IMG/VR virus record: IMGVR_UViG_3300012211_000004
Span: 1 to 64,000 of that record
From: a virus
DNA: 64,000 nucleotides
Strand: one strand, 5' to 3'
Shown: positions 28,086 to 64,000 of the stretch, in pieces
How the letters are laid out: every line of letters starts with the position of its first letter
How positions within the stretch are numbered: the stretch's first letter is position 1
Notes under the pieces: model-generated
What the model was told of the DNA's origin: nothing
Seen by the model: only the letters and a program-made list of their open reading frames with translations
Database searches by the model: none
Program-made: the position numbers and the translations under genes

Positions 28086-29570
28086 CTATCCTTTCTGCCC
28101 TACCAGGTCACTTTGCTGCTTCTTGTCATCCTGCTGGTTAGGCGGTTGCTGCATTTGAGGAGGAACTATACCCATCTTTTGCTGCTGCTCCATCTTCTTC
28201 TTGTTTTCCTCTTCCTTCTTCTTAGCCTCTACATCAGCGTTATAGCCGATTTCCTGTAGAGATGTGTCCTCACTCACGCCGGCTTGTTGAAGTGCTGAGG
28301 CTGTTTGTGCATCTTTCATCTTATCCACTGGCAAGAGATTGGGCCAATGTATATCAATAGGATAGCTCTCATACTCCTCTACTATGATTTTTCCACCTAA
28401 TACCAGTGCTGCTCTTGATAGCTCACGTATCATTTTACCGTACAATCTACGCTTCTGAGTTGTCTTCTCGATAAGAGGTTGAAACATCAGCTTCATGGTA
28501 GTAGCTGGTATGTCGCCTCCACCGGGCAGGTTCTCAAGTCTGCCTAGCGCCACGGCTGGCACACGGCTCCGCTCATCCATCGTCATGCGGATATCAGCAG
28601 AGAAGTTTCGAGAGCTGCCGAGATCGCTGTTCATCTCCAGGTTGTAGACTTTGCTATCAGGGGATGGCAGAAGGGTGATATCGCCAGGGCTGGTCTTGAG
28701 CTCTTGTATGTTTGCTCCTGTGGCTATTGTCTTAGGATGTCCATGAAAAAAGATGATAGAAGCCGTGTTGCTATCGTTGAAGTTGAGAGACTCATTTTGC
28801 CCTATCAAATCCTCTGTAAGGTCAGGGATACCCCACGACTCGTTAGGATTGGGCAGGTTCTTATTTGTGAAGATAGGAGCAAATGGGTAGAGCCAGTCTT
28901 CTTGTGTCCCCACTTGTACCCATGTTGTTGCCGTGATCTTCTTCTCATAATTCGTGATAGTCCAGTAGTCGTCTAGCGTTGACCCTAGTTTTGTAGTATC
29001 AGCATTTGGGTCAACACGCGCTATAATCTGCCTTTTCTGTGTATCATTATAAATAGGATATTCAATGATATACGCCCAATGCATCTTACAATCTTCAGGA
29101 TCGGTCACGATACGTACATTTGATGGATCAAGCTCCACAATACGCGGGTATTTCTGGGAGCCCTGTGCAGGTACAAGCTTAGAAAATACTTGACCGCATA
29201 CGCCGCCGTTCATGCCGATTTCAGAGAGCAGCGTCATTTTGTCGTCGTCATCGCCCCAGACAGCATCGAGGAATTCCTGATTAGCTTCATCTGGTGTATC
29301 TGTTTCGCTCCCTTCCTTCTCACCGGGTTCTATCTTTAGAGACTCTCCAAACAGGAACGAGACACCTTTATCGACAATAGGCGCACATCGATTAGAAATG
29401 ACATTGGGGTCTTCATCACCTTTTTCTACTTTGAGTGGCTTCTCGAACTCACCTCTATATCTTTTCCACGCTTCAGTCATACATCTTTTGCGCTTGATAT
29501 CTTCAGGCGGAACGGGAGCCTGTGCAAGCGTCTTTTGCTGATTTTGCTGTATTCGGTAGTCAATACTCAT
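28086..29570 (-). CDS. Portal protein
   Basis: 494 aa from the ATG at 29570, with GAAAGG 9 nt upstream, overlapping the terL stop. SPP1 gp6-type portal features: WKRYRGEFEKPL, then VISNRCAPIVDKGVSFLFGE near the N-terminus, a long central alpha/beta region, and a C-terminal Gln/Pro-rich tail (PPQMQQPPNQQ). The dodecameric portal is the DNA entry vertex and binds terminase. Its place after terL is standard. Confidence 0.9.
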   Translation of the reverse strand: MSIDYRIQQNQQKTLAQAPVPPEDIKRKRCMTEAWKRYRGEFEKPLKVEKGDEDPNVISNRCAPIVDKGVSFLFGESLKIEPGEKEGSETDTPDEANQEFLDAVWGDDDDKMTLLSEIGMNGGVCGQVFSKLVPAQGSQKYPRIVELDPSNVRIVTDPEDCKMHWAYIIEYPIYNDTQKRQIIARVDPNADTTKLGSTLDDYWTITNYEKKITATTWVQVGTQEDWLYPFAPIFTNKNLPNPNESWGIPDLTEDLIGQNESLNFNDSNTASIIFFHGHPKTIATGANIQELKTSPGDITLLPSPDSKVYNLEMNSDLGSSRNFSADIRMTMDERSRVPAVALGRLENLPGGGDIPATTMKLMFQPLIEKTTQKRRLYGKMIRELSRAALVLGGKIIVEEYESYPIDIHWPNLLPVDKMKDAQTASALQQAGVSEDTSLQEIGYNADVEAKKKEEENKKKMEQQQKMGIVPPQMQQPPNQQDDKKQQSDLVGQKG

Positions 29571-30910
29571 CTCCAAAAGCCTTTCACGTAACCTACTTGA
29601 TTAGGTACAAGATCCATAAAGGCGCACATGTATCTATCGCAGTCCATGCTATGATCGAACTCTTTCACAGGCTGATCACCTTTCTTGAGCCCTTGACGTG
29701 TATCCCAAATGTATACATCAAATTCTTCAATGCCACACTTCGGTTTCTTCTCTCGCACCAGTTCCGGGTCAGGTTCCACTAGGCAGTTGCTGAAATACAT
29801 CAGGCGTGGTTTCCCATCGCCCGCTGGCCTAAGTCTGGAAGCGACGGCCTGTATACCATCCGAGACAGACTTGTGAGCAGGCGTCGTGTAGAGACCAGTG
29901 TGTCTAGTAAACGTCTCACGATCTTCTGCATCGTGATCCGCTATAACCTGTCTTGGTAACGGATCGCCATCTTTTTCGCCCCATCGCGATAAATGCTTAA
30001 TTTGTTTGGCATGGTCTTCTACAAGCGTTTTAGTCTTGTATATCTCTCTATAACAGTAGAGACGCCCATCGTTATCTTCCGCATACCACTTGCAAACAAA
30101 TGGATTTGTGAAGCCAAAGTCTAGAACAATCCAACGCGGCCATTCCTTTGGGATAGGGAACGGATCTATAACGTTCTTGGCTCTATCGTACGATCCTTCA
30201 TACACAGTTCCGGACGCGGCGGCCCAAACCCCATACCTTAGTCTCGCAAGACGTACGCCCGTAAGACCGCCAAGGATCTCAAAAATATACGTATACCCTT
30301 CCTTGGTCCAATCGTTTTTGCGGATATCAAAGTAGCGAGGGTTCTGCTCATGTCGACTAAGTAAGCGTGTCGTTTTTCCCTCAAGCATACGAACATTGAC
30401 CCAGTGAGTCGGGGCATCAGGATTCGTATCCATGATCAACTGATGGTATGGTGTTTTACCATGACGAAGACGGGAGCGCACAAACTCTATATCCTCTTCG
30501 GTCATTTCGGTTACTTCGTTTAAATAAGCTAAATCAAACTCGAACGACTTGATTTTTTCGGGTTTGTCGAGGCCGGAAACGATCATAATGGAACCATTCC
30601 GATACTGATATGCAGCAGGTTTGACTTTGCTGCCACCATAGTACGTCGCCTCGCGGGGATCAAGCATCTCACGAAACGTCGCCATAGCAGAGCCAGCTAA
30701 TGCAATATTCGTCTTTCTGGCAACCAATGCTTTAGAGCCAGGATAGAGAGTAAGCATTATATGCACTTTAAATAGGCATGCGAACGTCTTGCCGGTCCCT
30801 GCCGGGCCATCGAGGCACACCTCCAAGTCCCTGCAAGATCCTAGTGCGTGGTTCCCGCCCCTAAACTCAGGGGCGGGTATGACTAAAGAAGCGGCAAGGT
30901 TAGGCACCAT
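29567..30910 (-). CDS. terL: Terminase large subunit
   Basis: 447 aa. Walker A GPAGTGKT (35-42), Walker B FDLAYLNE (125-132) with a downstream motif MDTNPD, and the RNase H-like nuclease residues in IVLDFGF (Asp264), IADHDAED (about 323-330) and FDHSMDCDRY near the C-terminus. It packages DNA into the procapsid and cuts it. Overlaps terS upstream and the portal gene downstream. Confidence 0.95.
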   Translation of the reverse strand: MVPNLAASLVIPAPEFRGGNHALGSCRDLEVCLDGPAGTGKTFACLFKVHIMLTLYPGSKALVARKTNIALAGSAMATFREMLDPREATYYGGSKVKPAAYQYRNGSIMIVSGLDKPEKIKSFEFDLAYLNEVTEMTEEDIEFVRSRLRHGKTPYHQLIMDTNPDAPTHWVNVRMLEGKTTRLLSRHEQNPRYFDIRKNDWTKEGYTYIFEILGGLTGVRLARLRYGVWAAASGTVYEGSYDRAKNVIDPFPIPKEWPRWIVLDFGFTNPFVCKWYAEDNDGRLYCYREIYKTKTLVEDHAKQIKHLSRWGEKDGDPLPRQVIADHDAEDRETFTRHTGLYTTPAHKSVSDGIQAVASRLRPAGDGKPRLMYFSNCLVEPDPELVREKKPKCGIEEFDVYIWDTRQGLKKGDQPVKEFDHSMDCDRYMCAFMDLVPNQVGYVKGFWR

Positions 30911-33155: not shown

Positions 33156-34052
33156 CTAGAAATTGAGCACATCCACAGCGTTATTATCCAAATTCAGCTT
33201 GCGTCTCTGATACCGCTCTGTTGTCCTCGGATCTGCATGCCCTAGCGCATACTGGACCTGATGTAGAGGTGCTTCTGCCTCAAGAGCCAAGGTTGCGAAC
33301 GTCGCCCGTAGCCCGTGGGGGGTCAACTCTGTTCCTGCAGGTGCGTACTTTTTAACCAGCAACTCAACAGACTTATCAGTCATCTGGCAGCTGGTAGGGT
33401 GGTCCCCGCGCCTGAACGAGACGAATAAAGCTTCACCCTCGTTTCCTCTTGCAGATAGATAGTCCTCCAGTGCTCTGAAGACATCCACTCGAAGCTTGAC
33501 GATCCGTCGCTTATCGCCCTTGCCGTGCTCAATGACTGCCACATGGTGTCCATCCATGATCTTGATATCCGCTCGATTCAGCGAGACCAATTCAGCACGT
33601 CTTAATCCTGTTTTCATAAGCATCAGGATAAGCGCATAATCACGCTTCCCTTGATTGGTACTTCTATTGATAGTATCAAGCATATCCTTTGCTTGGGTCT
33701 TAGAAAGTGCTGTATGGGTTGTTTCGTCACTATTTCCGCTAAATCCTTTTACATCTTGCGTTATATCATCTGTGAGATATCCCGCTCTTTTTCGCTCTTT
33801 CATAAGCTTACAGGCAATGCTAAACATACGCTGTTTTGTTGCCTTAGCATAGGCACTCTCAGCTAGATGTACACGATATGCTATCATGTCAGATCGTGTC
33901 ATACTTTCTGGCAATATACCTTTTTCTTGCATCCATGCCACAAAATGCTTTATATCATTTTCATATACGCGTTTTGAAGACGGAGCAAGTTGACCAGCAA
34001 TATCAGTAAGTGTCTGATCTAACTGCTGAGGGGTTGGTATCAGATCGGTCAT
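33156..34052 (-). CDS. Tyrosine recombinase (integrase)
   Basis: 298 aa. An N-terminal SAM-like core-binding domain (residues 10-95) is followed by the catalytic domain with Arg151 (KTGLRRAELVSL), Lys178 (HGKGDKRR), His246-x-x-Arg249 (TPHGLRATFAT), His272 (LGHADPRTT) and the nucleophile Tyr281 (TERYQRR). It resembles XerC/D-like and phage integrases and probably acts in integration, excision or dimer resolution. Flanked by structured noncoding DNA that may hold attP. Confidence 0.93.
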   Translation of the reverse strand: MTDLIPTPQQLDQTLTDIAGQLAPSSKRVYENDIKHFVAWMQEKGILPESMTRSDMIAYRVHLAESAYAKATKQRMFSIACKLMKERKRAGYLTDDITQDVKGFSGNSDETTHTALSKTQAKDMLDTINRSTNQGKRDYALILMLMKTGLRRAELVSLNRADIKIMDGHHVAVIEHGKGDKRRIVKLRVDVFRALEDYLSARGNEGEALFVSFRRGDHPTSCQMTDKSVELLVKKYAPAGTELTPHGLRATFATLALEAEAPLHQVQYALGHADPRTTERYQRRKLNLDNNAVDVLNF

Positions 34053-60116: not shown

Positions 60117-60140
60117 TATCTACTAGTGAAAGGGAATCCA

Positions 60141-61238
60141 GTGAATTATCACACCTATCCGTATGGACATGACTATGGTAACTCTAAAACATGTGGCATC
60201 GCCTACATAGGCAGTAGTGTTTGTGCTCAAACTATGCCAAGTGCGCTTTATGAGGGATCGCAAGAGGAACTAGAGAGCATGTCAATGGGCGGAGACCTAC
60301 GTCAAACAGGGACGCTTAATGATCGATCGCATATCATCAAAGTCAATGGCAATGAATTCTATGTTGGAGACCTGGCAATTGAGCAAGCTCCATCAATGAA
60401 CATTGCAGAGTTGACTAGCCGTGGTGACATCACGCGCTATTGGAGTGTTCGCAGTCTAGCGATGCTCCTAGCAACGTCAGGAACGGTTATCAAGGATCGT
60501 GAGTATGGCTTGATCATTGTGACTGGTCTGCCGATTGCGACCCACAACGAAGAGAATATCCAGGCCATTAAAAATGCTCTCGAAGGCGACCATGATTTTA
60601 TCCTTGATGGCGAAAGACGTATAGCCCATGTCGCCGTTAGGAAGATCATCATGGAAGGCTCTGGTGCCAACATTGCGCATGGCGCTATCGGCAAAGTAAA
60701 AGCTGGCATTATCGACATTGGAGGACGTACAACTGACATTTATATGGTCAGCGGTCAGACGCCTATCAAGGATCAATGCAAGTCGTTTGATATGGGCGTT
60801 GAGTCTGCAATTGATAGCCTTATTGAAGCTTTTGAAAAAGAGTTTCGCTATCCGTTATCTGCTGGCGATGCCGCCAAATTGCAAAACTGTTTTGTTGATA
60901 CAAAGTCCTATGATTTTGTTGCGACTGTCAGGAATGCAGGGGCTAATCACCAGAGAGTAGACGCACTCTTGAGCAAGTCTTTAGGTGAAGTTGGCAGAAA
61001 GATTTCAGGCTTCATTAAACGGTCTTGGTCTAGTTCTCTGCGCAATGATGTTGTTGCCAGCGATGCTGAATACGTCCTACTTGTCGGGGGTGGTGCATAC
61101 TACTTTGAGGAAGGTATAAGAGCCCTCTTCCAAAATCGGCTATCTCTACCTCACAAGCCAGAATTAGCGAACGCAGCAGGTTACGCCAGACTTGCACTCC
61201 ATTTCTCTAATCGAGATCTTAAAGAGCAGGTTTCCTAG
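60141..61238 (+). CDS. ParM-like actin-family ATPase
   Basis: 365 aa from the GTG at 60141 with AAAGGG upstream (a GTG at 60126 lacks an SD). Actin-fold motifs: phosphate 1 GHDYGNSKTCG (9-19), phosphate 2 AGIIDIGGRTTDIY (188-201) and adenosine-binding VLLVGGGAYYF (312-322). It should polymerise with ATP to push plasmid copies apart. The next gene encodes a ParR-like adaptor and the upstream region has parC-like repeats. Confidence 0.85.
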   Translation: MNYHTYPYGHDYGNSKTCGIAYIGSSVCAQTMPSALYEGSQEELESMSMGGDLRQTGTLNDRSHIIKVNGNEFYVGDLAIEQAPSMNIAELTSRGDITRYWSVRSLAMLLATSGTVIKDREYGLIIVTGLPIATHNEENIQAIKNALEGDHDFILDGERRIAHVAVRKIIMEGSGANIAHGAIGKVKAGIIDIGGRTTDIYMVSGQTPIKDQCKSFDMGVESAIDSLIEAFEKEFRYPLSAGDAAKLQNCFVDTKSYDFVATVRNAGANHQRVDALLSKSLGEVGRKISGFIKRSWSSSLRNDVVASDAEYVLLVGGGAYYFEEGIRALFQNRLSLPHKPELANAAGYARLALHFSNRDLKEQVS

Positions 61239-61240
61239 CC

Positions 61241-61522
61241 ATGCCAAGAGATACAGAAAAGAAGTCGTACATCACGGTAGCTGTCAATAAAGATAGCGAT
61301 TTGATGAGGCAATTGATCGAAGATGAAAGGCGTAAAGGCATCCCAAAAAGCCACTTAATCATCAATTATGCAGATGAGTATGTACGCCTTTTCATCCAAG
61401 GAAACACGGCCCCTCCTGTCACCCAAAACGTGACAAAGGGACCGCTTCTTAATCAGGAAAATGAAGCCATGATCACCAGTGATATTAGTGACGATGATCT
61501 GGCAGACGCCTATGGAGACTAA
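61241..61522 (+). CDS. ParR-like ribbon-helix-helix adaptor
   Basis: 93 aa, 2 bp after the ParM-like gene. The N-terminal KKSYITVAVNKDSDLMRQL strand, then helices (PKSHLIINYADEYVRLF) fit a ribbon-helix-helix fold; the polar, acidic C-terminus (about 55-93) fits the ParM-binding tail of ParR proteins. It probably binds the upstream repeats. Confidence 0.7.
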   Translation: MPRDTEKKSYITVAVNKDSDLMRQLIEDERRKGIPKSHLIINYADEYVRLFIQGNTAPPVTQNVTKGPLLNQENEAMITSDISDDDLADAYGD

Positions 61523-61981: not shown

Positions 61982-62638
61982 ATGCAACGATACTATAATG
62001 CATCTCAAGCTGCAAGAGAACTGAATGTCCCTGATAAAACGATTAGGAGATGGCTCAAGCAAGGACTGTCAGGCAGATGGCAGCTTACAGCAGTACGAAC
62101 AGAGTCTGGTCAGCTTGCCATAGCCACTTCAGATATTGAGAGAATCAAGCGAGAACGTGAACAGGACCGCATGCGCTTTGCAAAGCCAGCAGGACTAGGC
62201 ATGTCTAATCTGGACGAGGGAGACTTGCCTAAGCAGGTAGAGTCACTTACACAGAGAGTAGGCGAATTAGAGAAAAGAATTGCAGAACTAGAGAGCACTC
62301 TATCGCAACAGAACATGCCTAATCTTGACTACCAGCAACCTCTAGGCATGCCTAGTCCACAACCATCCTCTCATCCATCCTCTCCAAAGCCACAGCCTCA
62401 CAAATCGATTGTAGCGCCTGCTGAAGACGACATGCTCTCAGCTAGAGACTTTGCTACCAAGATCGGCATCGAATACACACTCCTGGACGGCTATGCACGA
62501 CGCGGTATAGCTGGTGAAAAGATGGATGTTACTGAGGTGCCTACGACGAGAAAGGGATACTCACGTAAGTATTTCAACCCCACTCAGCAGGAACGAGCGA
62601 TAGAGCTACTTCGAAGACACGGCAAGCTACCATCCTGA
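61982..62638 (+). CDS. Two-HTH DNA-binding protein with coiled-coil linker
   Basis: 218 aa, SD GACAGGAG. Residues 1-60: MerR/excisionase-like HTH (YYNASQAARELNVPDKTIRR). Residues 80-110: coiled coil (ESLTQRVGELEKRIAELEST). A Pro/Ser/His-rich linker is followed by a second HTH-like domain (about 150-215, SARDFATKIGIEYTLLDGYA). Upstream CTAGTC-GT-GACTAG (61951-61964) is a palindrome, perhaps an operator. Probably a regulator. Confidence 0.75.
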   Translation: MQRYYNASQAARELNVPDKTIRRWLKQGLSGRWQLTAVRTESGQLAIATSDIERIKREREQDRMRFAKPAGLGMSNLDEGDLPKQVESLTQRVGELEKRIAELESTLSQQNMPNLDYQQPLGMPSPQPSSHPSSPKPQPHKSIVAPAEDDMLSARDFATKIGIEYTLLDGYARRGIAGEKMDVTEVPTTRKGYSRKYFNPTQQERAIELLRRHGKLPS

Positions 62639-62648
62639 TCTGCTGTGG

Positions 62649-62654
62649 TATACT
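62649..62654 (+). promoter_or_regulatory. Possible -10 of the double-glycine peptide gene
   Basis: TATACT, preceded by TGTGG, the same 11-mer as the -10 region at 7797-7807. No good -35 is visible, so the promoter call is tentative; a similar TGTGGTATA precedes the RNA region at 63433. Confidence 0.35.
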
Positions 62655-62681
62655 GGATAAAAATTCCAGGAGGACCAAGAA

Positions 62682-62861
62682 ATGGAAGACAATGGCTTTG
62701 ATGAACGCGAGTTGACCGATGAGGAGCTGCAGGCTGTCTATGGTGGTCTCAGCGTCTCAGATCTGCTGAATGTTGGGGACGTGACTACTGTGCTCGATAG
62801 GGTAGCTGTAGGCAATGTCGTGGCACCCATCAGCATTGCAGGGAACGATCTTTCCCTTTAG
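62682..62861 (+). CDS. Double-glycine-leader secreted peptide (bacteriocin/RiPP-like)
   Basis: 59 aa, too short for routine gene calling. SD CAGGAGG, 8 nt before ATG. The leader ends ELTDEELQAVYGG (residues 10-22), the acidic double-glycine signal cut by C39-peptidase transporters. The 37-residue core begins LSVSDLLNVGDVTT, is Gly/Val-rich, and has no Cys, so lanthionine or disulfide rings are unlikely. It may be an unmodified bacteriocin or signal peptide. No transporter or modification gene is in the window. A perfect terminator follows. Confidence 0.7.
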   Translation: MEDNGFDERELTDEELQAVYGGLSVSDLLNVGDVTTVLDRVAVGNVVAPISIAGNDLSL

Positions 62862-62877
62862 CTTCATCTGCACGAAA

Positions 62878-62909
62878 AGAGGACTCCAAATAGCGGAGTC
62901 CTCTTTTTT
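62878..62909 (+). terminator. Strong rho-independent terminator
   Basis: AGAGGACTCC (62878-62887) and GGAGTCCTCT (62895-62904), a perfect 10-bp stem with a 7-nt loop and a run of T residues, isolating the peptide gene as a single transcription unit. Confidence 0.9.
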
Positions 62910-62925
62910 ATGAGGAGGGATACCT

Positions 62926-63195
62926 TTGAACGATCAACATCACACCTGGAATGATGGCCCGGCAATTCGCACAAGAAAGCGTCCTTGTGGATGCTACATC
63001 ACGAAACGGACGTTCATCTTATGCAAGAGAGGGCAAGATCTCAAGAAAAGCGTAGATGGCTGCTACGGGCTATGGCAGTCGCACAAGGATAAGCCTGTAG
63101 ATAAAGCAATCATCCGTGCTCTATTCGATAATTTTGGCATACATAAGAACGCGTACAGAGGTCATGTGATGAGAGGAGATGAATGGGCGGGATAA
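62926..63195 (+). CDS. Hypothetical protein, 89 aa
   Basis: TTG start with SD GAGGAGGG. Contains PCGCYITKRTFILCKRG and a single later Cys, with an aromatic-rich, basic C-terminus. May bind zinc. A stem (63202-63236) follows. No family recognised. Confidence 0.6.
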   Translation: MNDQHHTWNDGPAIRTRKRPCGCYITKRTFILCKRGQDLKKSVDGCYGLWQSHKDKPVDKAIIRALFDNFGIHKNAYRGHVMRGDEWAG

Positions 63196-63201
63196 CGAGA
63201 A

Positions 63202-63236
63202 ACGCCGCTTCCTCTGCCAATCAATGAAAGCGGCGT
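63202..63236 (+). terminator. GC-rich hairpin after the 62926 gene
   Basis: ACGCCGCTT (63202-63210) and AAGCGGCGT (63228-63236), a perfect 9-bp stem; no T run follows, so it may be a terminator with another mechanism or a processing hairpin. In 63237-63414 I see nothing else credible. Confidence 0.45.
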
Positions 63237-63414
63237 CTCTCGAACATGATTTGAACGTGTCGTGACAAATATCCGCCGGTCTCACACGGTTGCTATACAC
63301 ATCTACACAACCCTATCATCAATACCGCATGGCCTTTAGATCATGGCTCTATTATATCTATATCAATCATACATGTCTATAGTTTCCTGATGTATTTTCC
63401 ATGTTACACAAACA

Positions 63415-63442
63415 TTGACAACCGTGAATGATGTGGTATAGT
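63415..63442 (+). promoter_or_regulatory. Promoter of the candidate RNA
   Basis: TTGACA (63415-63420) and TATAGT (63437-63442) with a 16-bp spacer; the expected transcription start is near 63449, directly before the hairpin-dense region. Confidence 0.6.
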
Positions 63443-63448
63443 GTGATA

Positions 63449-63745
63449 CATGCATTTGATTTTGTTCTCAATTAGAAGGGGCATCCTAACAGTGATCGCA
63501 TACATACTCCAACGTGGTGATATGCATGCGAATCGAACACTTTCACCACGAGGATCGATAGGACGGGGACGCAAGTCTTTGCGCGATCCGCAAAAAGGCA
63601 GCGTAACTGCGCCACGCCAGCATACTGCTGGTTTTATGGAACATATGCAGCAATGCGGTTCCTTGCCCGGCTAGGGCCATACACAGAGCAATCTGTGCGA
63701 TGTATTGCAGGGATGTGTGGGTAGTAGAGCCGCTGAGGCTCATTC
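63449..63745 (+). ncRNA. Candidate structured noncoding RNA
   Basis: Many perfect hairpins follow one another: CGTGGTGA/TCACCACG (63513-63550), GGATC/GATCC enclosing CGCAA/TTGCG (63552-63589), CCAGCA/TGCTGG (63617-63631), GGAAC/GTTCC with GCA-GCAA-TGC inside (63638-63662), CACAGA-GCAA-TCTGTG (63682-63697) and GAGCC/GGCTC (63727-63741). Two have GNRA-type GCAA loops. A 74-codon frame from 63450 would be leaderless and is not protein-like. No known RNA family is recognised. The 3' end is not defined. Confidence 0.45.
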
Positions 63746-63802
63746 ACACTGAAGTGCAGAAATTAACACGTTTGAACACGTTTTGAAAGGCAGAGATATA
63801 CC

Positions 63803-64000
63803 ATGTCCAATCATACAGGCCATTTAGGCCATGCACACCATACTGCGGAAGATAGGCTGTTGACAGTGGCTGAAATTGCAGCAAAGCTTCGTGTTGATCA
63901 AACAACTGTACGAAGATGGATCAAGCATGGCACGCTAGAAGCCGTTTCTCTGCCACATGTGGGCAAGCGACAATCCTATAGGGTAAAAACATCTACCTTT
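63803..64000 (+). CDS. Excisionase/MerR-like HTH protein, truncated by window edge
   Basis: 66 codons to the edge. SD GAAAGG. His-rich start (SNHTGHLGHAHHTAED), then LLTVAEIAAKLRVDQTTVRR, the HTH_17/excisionase domain. AACACGTTT is repeated just upstream (63768-63784), a possible operator. The C-terminus lies outside the window. Confidence 0.75.
   Translation, partial: MSNHTGHLGHAHHTAEDRLLTVAEIAAKLRVDQTTVRRWIKHGTLEAVSLPHVGKRQSYRVKTSTF

Follow-up and report, generated by a model that had tools for sequence, protein, structure and literature searches.

The window analyzed here (64,000 nucleotides, positions 1 to 64,000 of IMG/VR virus record IMGVR_UViG_3300012211_000004) contains a gene for a 59-aa double-glycine leader peptide (positions 62682 to 62861, plus strand), and the phage that carries it has no C39 domain. 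At the level of sequence, the gene, its double-glycine leader, and the absence of an exporter on the phage are firm. We consider it reasonably probable that this gene is a moron on a temperate phage and that its product would be exported by a C39 transporter of the host; the further step, that the exported peptide acts in competition, is held separately and is treated below.

The reading frame extends from an ATG at 62682 to a TAG at 62859 to 62861 and is preceded, 8 nt 5′ of the ATG, by the Shine-Dalgarno sequence AGGAGG (62668 to 62673), in agreement with the 59-codon frame and strong ribosome-binding site of the initial annotation. Its leader, MEDNGFDERELTDEELQAVYGG (62682 to 62747, plus strand), ends in ELTDEELQAVYGG, with cleavage predicted after GG, and is of the type found beside C39 exporters of the probable host class. 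The core that follows, LSVSDLLNVGDVTTVLDRVAVGNVVAPISIAGNDLSL (62748 to 62858, plus strand), consists of 37 residues, is rich in Val and Asn, has a computed net charge of -3 (i.e., is anionic), and, as translation confirms, lacks Cys. An extended -10 element, TGGTATACT (62646 to 62654, plus strand), is situated directly 3′ of the stop codon of the upstream gene, and only 4 sites of the form TGnTATA(A/C)T occur in the 64 kb, counting both strands. A two-hexamer promoter scan found no good -35 for the peptide gene, and we infer its promoter from the -10 motif alone. Downstream, an intrinsic terminator hairpin (62874 to 62908, plus strand; 14 pairs, RNAfold -21.9 kcal/mol) extends into a T run, at the place where a perfect 10-bp terminator was originally noted. 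A generic signal scanner listed neither this terminator nor the TGGTATACT promoter; its requirement for two sigma-70 hexamers and for a T tail free of pairing is the probable reason. No RNA family matched near the peptide gene.

Assignment of the leader is based on both a curated family and a profile built from host peptides. TIGR01847, the double-glycine leader domain, matches residues 10 to 22 at 17.4 bits (curated cutoff, 15.7 bits), which provides the family search that the initial annotation had proposed. On a 12-position matrix derived from 34 leaders encoded beside C39 genes of the probable host class, with the window peptide excluded, the leader scores 32.6 bits, within the span covered by those host leaders (26.7 to 40.3 bits), whereas the second-best site in the record reaches 14.5 bits and 60 dinucleotide shuffles peak at 20.4 bits (mean, 11.6 bits; standard deviation, 2.8 bits). 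An AlphaFold2 model from a two-row alignment predicts a helix at leader residues 13 to 20 and assigns low confidence to the core (mean pLDDT of 51).

The record as a whole (64741 bases, or 64.7 kb, with a GC content of 47%) combines phage and plasmid features. It encodes a terminase large subunit (29567 to 30910, minus strand; Terminase_3, 3.9e-14), a tape-measure-like protein of 1714 aa along with further virion-type genes, a primase/helicase, a tyrosine recombinase (33156 to 34052, minus strand; Phage_integrase, 1.4e-30), and an actin-like ParM-type partition protein (60126 to 61238, plus strand; PHROG 691, 4e-31; ALP_N, 1.6e-14), which is followed by a small partner that is ParR-like by position only (61241 to 61522, plus strand). 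The co-occurrence of virion genes with a ParM-type gene and its partner supports in part the phage-plasmid lifestyle claimed initially; a tyrosine recombinase is also present, and the 64741-base record has no end repeats.

Directly upstream of the peptide gene lies a gene for a MerR/excisionase-type helix-turn-helix (HTH) protein with a coiled coil (61982 to 62638, plus strand; Pfam MerR_1 above cutoff), and downstream is a phage gene of 89 aa (62926 to 63195, plus strand). IMG/VR searches with these two neighbors gave nothing, and the upstream protein has no match in the probable host class. A sibling phage is G003, an IMG/VR record whose ParM is 83% identical and whose parM partner, likewise directly after parM, is 58% identical, but in which the peptide gene is absent and leader scores on the host matrix are at background level only, making the peptide gene accessory. 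With its own Shine-Dalgarno sequence, terminator, and predicted promoter, and missing from so close a relative, the gene has the properties of the moron that it was first taken to be. G003 does contain a 45% relative of the gene at 62926, at an unrelated position and without the peptide, and for this reason the 62926 gene is probably not an immunity gene. Farther downstream, about 600 bases (63200 to 63790) between the peptide region and an HTH gene at 63803 contain no convincing gene and match no Rfam family even at an E value of 1; they are possibly a regulatory region or a replication origin.

Several lines of evidence point to a host within the Ktedonobacteria, an assignment that we regard as likely. 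The best genome match of the terminase is a Ktedonobacterales MAG (50%), with Streptomyces prophages close behind (43 to 49%); relatives of ParM occur in 18 of 47 Ktedonobacteria genomes (closest, 53% in G024) and in none of 72,556 plasmids. A Streptomyces host, suggested by terminase identities of up to 49%, was rejected: the prophage region checked has a GC content of 70%, versus 47% here, and several Ktedonobacteria loci range from 47 to 56%. Both the distribution of ParM relatives and the GC content thus favor Ktedonobacteria, which are multicellular soil bacteria whose phages, to our knowledge, have been little studied.

C39 exporters, which the initial annotation had proposed to seek in the host, are common in this probable host class and stand beside leaders of the same type. 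The C39 domain (PF03412) exceeds its cutoff in 26 of the 47 genomes, among them every one of the 18 that have a relative of ParM, and a leader regular expression recovers some 35 small ORFs with leaders of this type in 40 C39-gene neighborhoods. Scanned as a DNA pattern, the leader occurs at 28 sites in 16 of the 47 genomes (a reversed control pattern gave 0), 25 of them at most about 6 kb from a C39 gene. All 16 of these genomes have a C39 gene, whereas the pattern occurs in 0 of the 21 genomes without one (Fisher P = 4.5e-6 over 47 genomes, with kinship ignored). At a typical host locus, the peptide is followed by a protein of ~200 aa without a known domain and then by a C39-ABC protein of 836 to 1014 aa, whose best family, the NHLM exporter TIGR03796, remains below cutoff. 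One conserved host family (MFKFGKKN...GGSL) has Cys-free cores and, in five genomes, adjoins a C39-ABC exporter (L100, L103, L112, L113, and L123). For at least one host peptide (L032, in G030), the closest C39 gene among the matches listed on its contig is ~620 kb away, and export in trans is therefore plausible for it too. As there is no transporter on the phage, export of the phage peptide would be in trans, probably through a host protein of this kind, and the reliance on a host transporter originally proposed is consistent with the exporters present in the probable host clade.

Scans of IMG/VR with the leader pattern led to a parallel gene in G053 (IMGVR_UViG_3300036823_000091), a phage of 64488 bases that matches 11 ORFs of the window and has no ParM match. 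The G053 peptide gene (L136; 40394 to 40579, minus strand) is also stand-alone, with AAGGAGG 5′ of the gene and hairpins on both sides, and encodes MSNENERELTDEELEQVLGG plus VCIGDVNVANITSTPITVQALNGTTVNVVPQVPINVVNTSV; its leader, ERELTDEELEQVLGG, has ERELTDEEL, V, and GG in common with the window leader. Both genes thus have a Shine-Dalgarno sequence, a hairpin, the same leader type, and a Val/Asn-rich core; they differ in that the G053 gene starts with TTG, has a core of 41 aa with one Cys, and adjoins integrase and repressor-like genes rather than ParM. By sequence, then, two gene-sharing phages carry stand-alone double-glycine genes of one plan with different cores.

Conservation of the core in related elements, which had been proposed as a check, was not found. 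Searches of IMG/VR, phages, plasmids, and 47 host-class genomes yielded no relative of the whole peptide, the weak matches being confined to the leader or due to chance, and homology of the core to that of G053 or to host cores was not supported by a shuffling test, all 24 comparisons being at chance level (P of 0.03 or higher). Nor does the core match known bacteriocin families, as the scores for PF10439 (12.5 bits), TIGR03949 (12.4 bits), and NF038034 (13.9 bits) fall below the respective cutoffs of 27.1, 21.5, and 37 bits. The hallmarks of class II bacteriocins, namely, Cys residues, a family match, positive charge, and a recognizable immunity gene, are absent, no recognizable immunity gene being seen next to the peptide gene. 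Similarly, the features of a lanthipeptide or a glycocin of the sublancin type are lacking: the core has no Cys, and no modification enzyme was seen among the neighboring ORFs.

The reading that we prefer is as follows. The gene would be a transcription unit in itself, with promoter, strong Shine-Dalgarno sequence, ORF, and terminator, on a temperate phage that has partition genes of plasmid type and whose hosts are probably Ktedonobacteria. During lysogeny, the leader would be bound by one of the host's C39-ABC exporters, which would cut after GG and release the 37-residue core unmodified. The much weaker step is the last, in which the released core would serve the lysogen as a bacteriocin-like competition factor; we advance it tentatively and recognize that it may well be wrong. 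What favors it is that cores differ between phages and leaders do not, a combination of variable cores behind a fixed leader that suggests selection for specificity, in keeping with either a competition factor or a signal. Standing against the preferred reading as a whole are the absence of a recognizable immunity gene, the anionic (-3) and Cys-free core, the chance-level similarity of this core to those of G053 and the hosts, the lack of a whole-peptide homologue on which purifying selection could be judged, and a host that is only probable. A signal, by which lysogens would make themselves known to neighboring cells or phages through the action of the exported core on a regulator, is in our estimation unlikely, though the stand-alone gene without an immunity gene, its position directly 3′ of the MerR-type HTH gene, and a weak likeness of the leader to that of pheromone VP1 (NF033772, 16.2 bits) would all suit it. 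The VP1 cutoff is 85 bits, so membership in that family fails; moreover, no peptide receptor family is recognized adjoining the gene, and the sibling phage G003 does without the peptide. We place a competition factor slightly ahead of a signal, with low confidence.

Other roles appear less probable still. Some host cores (L189, L198, and L130) are of low complexity, of Gly-, His-, and Asn-rich types that do not resemble toxins, and the phage peptide, with its Val/Asn-rich core, could by analogy be host-derived cargo with a structural or surface role on filamentous host cells; since no host core is related to it in sequence, we find this improbable. Ktedonobacteria contain many lanthipeptide clusters, including class II clusters with GG cleavage sites (PMC6497799), and host RiPP enzymes might modify the precursor further in trans, but a core without Cys can form no lanthionine and the leader does not have the MSIEEIxKAWK start of Cys-rich host precursors, which leaves this very unlikely. 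We give marginally less credence to a peptide with an intracellular role, such as occupancy of the host exporter, and no release in active form: so close a likeness to host leaders could let it compete for the exporter, and an immunity gene would then be unnecessary, but so would a canonical GG site and a core of this length. That the ORF arose by chance, as the lack of any whole-peptide homologue in phages, plasmids, IMG/VR, and the 47 genomes might imply, is scarcely credible given the coincidence of Shine-Dalgarno sequence, -10 element, terminator, and leader, a leader score far above shuffles and above the TIGR01847 cutoff, and the parallel gene in G053.

Phage-borne double-glycine peptides are known, and it is the stand-alone arrangement that is new. 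SunT is a C39-type ABC transporter, and the leader of sublancin is of the GG type. In Bacillus subtilis, the sublancin 168 gene (sunA) came with prophage SPbeta, and its product is exported by SunT, which also takes off the leader (PMC6391423). Like the window gene, sunA is a phage-borne gene for a leader-bearing peptide, but SPbeta supplies the full kit, with transporter, glycosyltransferase, oxidoreductases, and immunity gene, whereas the window phage has the precursor alone, and sublancin contains Cys and a sugar, whereas the window core is without Cys. The telocins of Klebsiella telomere phages, which are phage-plasmids, are protein bacteriocins carried as cargo (PMC12042878) and resemble the window gene in differing between related phages and being absent from some; they are, however, large proteins with cognate immunity genes and not leader peptides for C39 exporters. 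Loci in Ktedonobacteria (e.g., L115 in G024 and L112 in G028) have the same leader type and Cys-free, Val/Ser/Asn-rich cores, but there the peptide adjoins its exporter, and the cores align with that of the window at chance level. A literature search outside subscription journals found no published description of a stand-alone phage double-glycine gene.

If the preferred reading is true, a phage equipped with the precursor alone gains, by way of a host exporter, a secreted function for about 200 bases. Such stand-alone precursor genes are easily overlooked in annotation, and this one offers a direct handle on how Ktedonobacteria prophages affect their neighbors. It is conceivable, although we are doubtful, that stand-alone double-glycine precursors are a common cargo of temperate Ktedonobacteria phages, with a leader that is fixed and cores that are interchangeable, and that use of host C39 exporters thereby provides every lysogen with an extracellular competition factor or signal of its own.

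Two further groups of double-glycine peptides were observed in viral sequences. IMG/VR phage contigs encode peptides with a post-GG core motif of roughly GG[MQ]SxxxFxxYRxxLIN (nine distinct sequences; loci L135, L138, L141, L142, L143, L144, L146, L148, L149, L151, L152, and L161); the three tested had no PHROG match below an E value of 0.06, and these peptides look like a phage peptide family of their own. Viral contigs of 58 to 65% GC (L137, L140, L139, and L145) contain another double-glycine type, in which ELTDAELDQVSGG is followed by Gly/Asn/Pro-rich cores, e.g., AMSTETPSGNPTNGHGEG.
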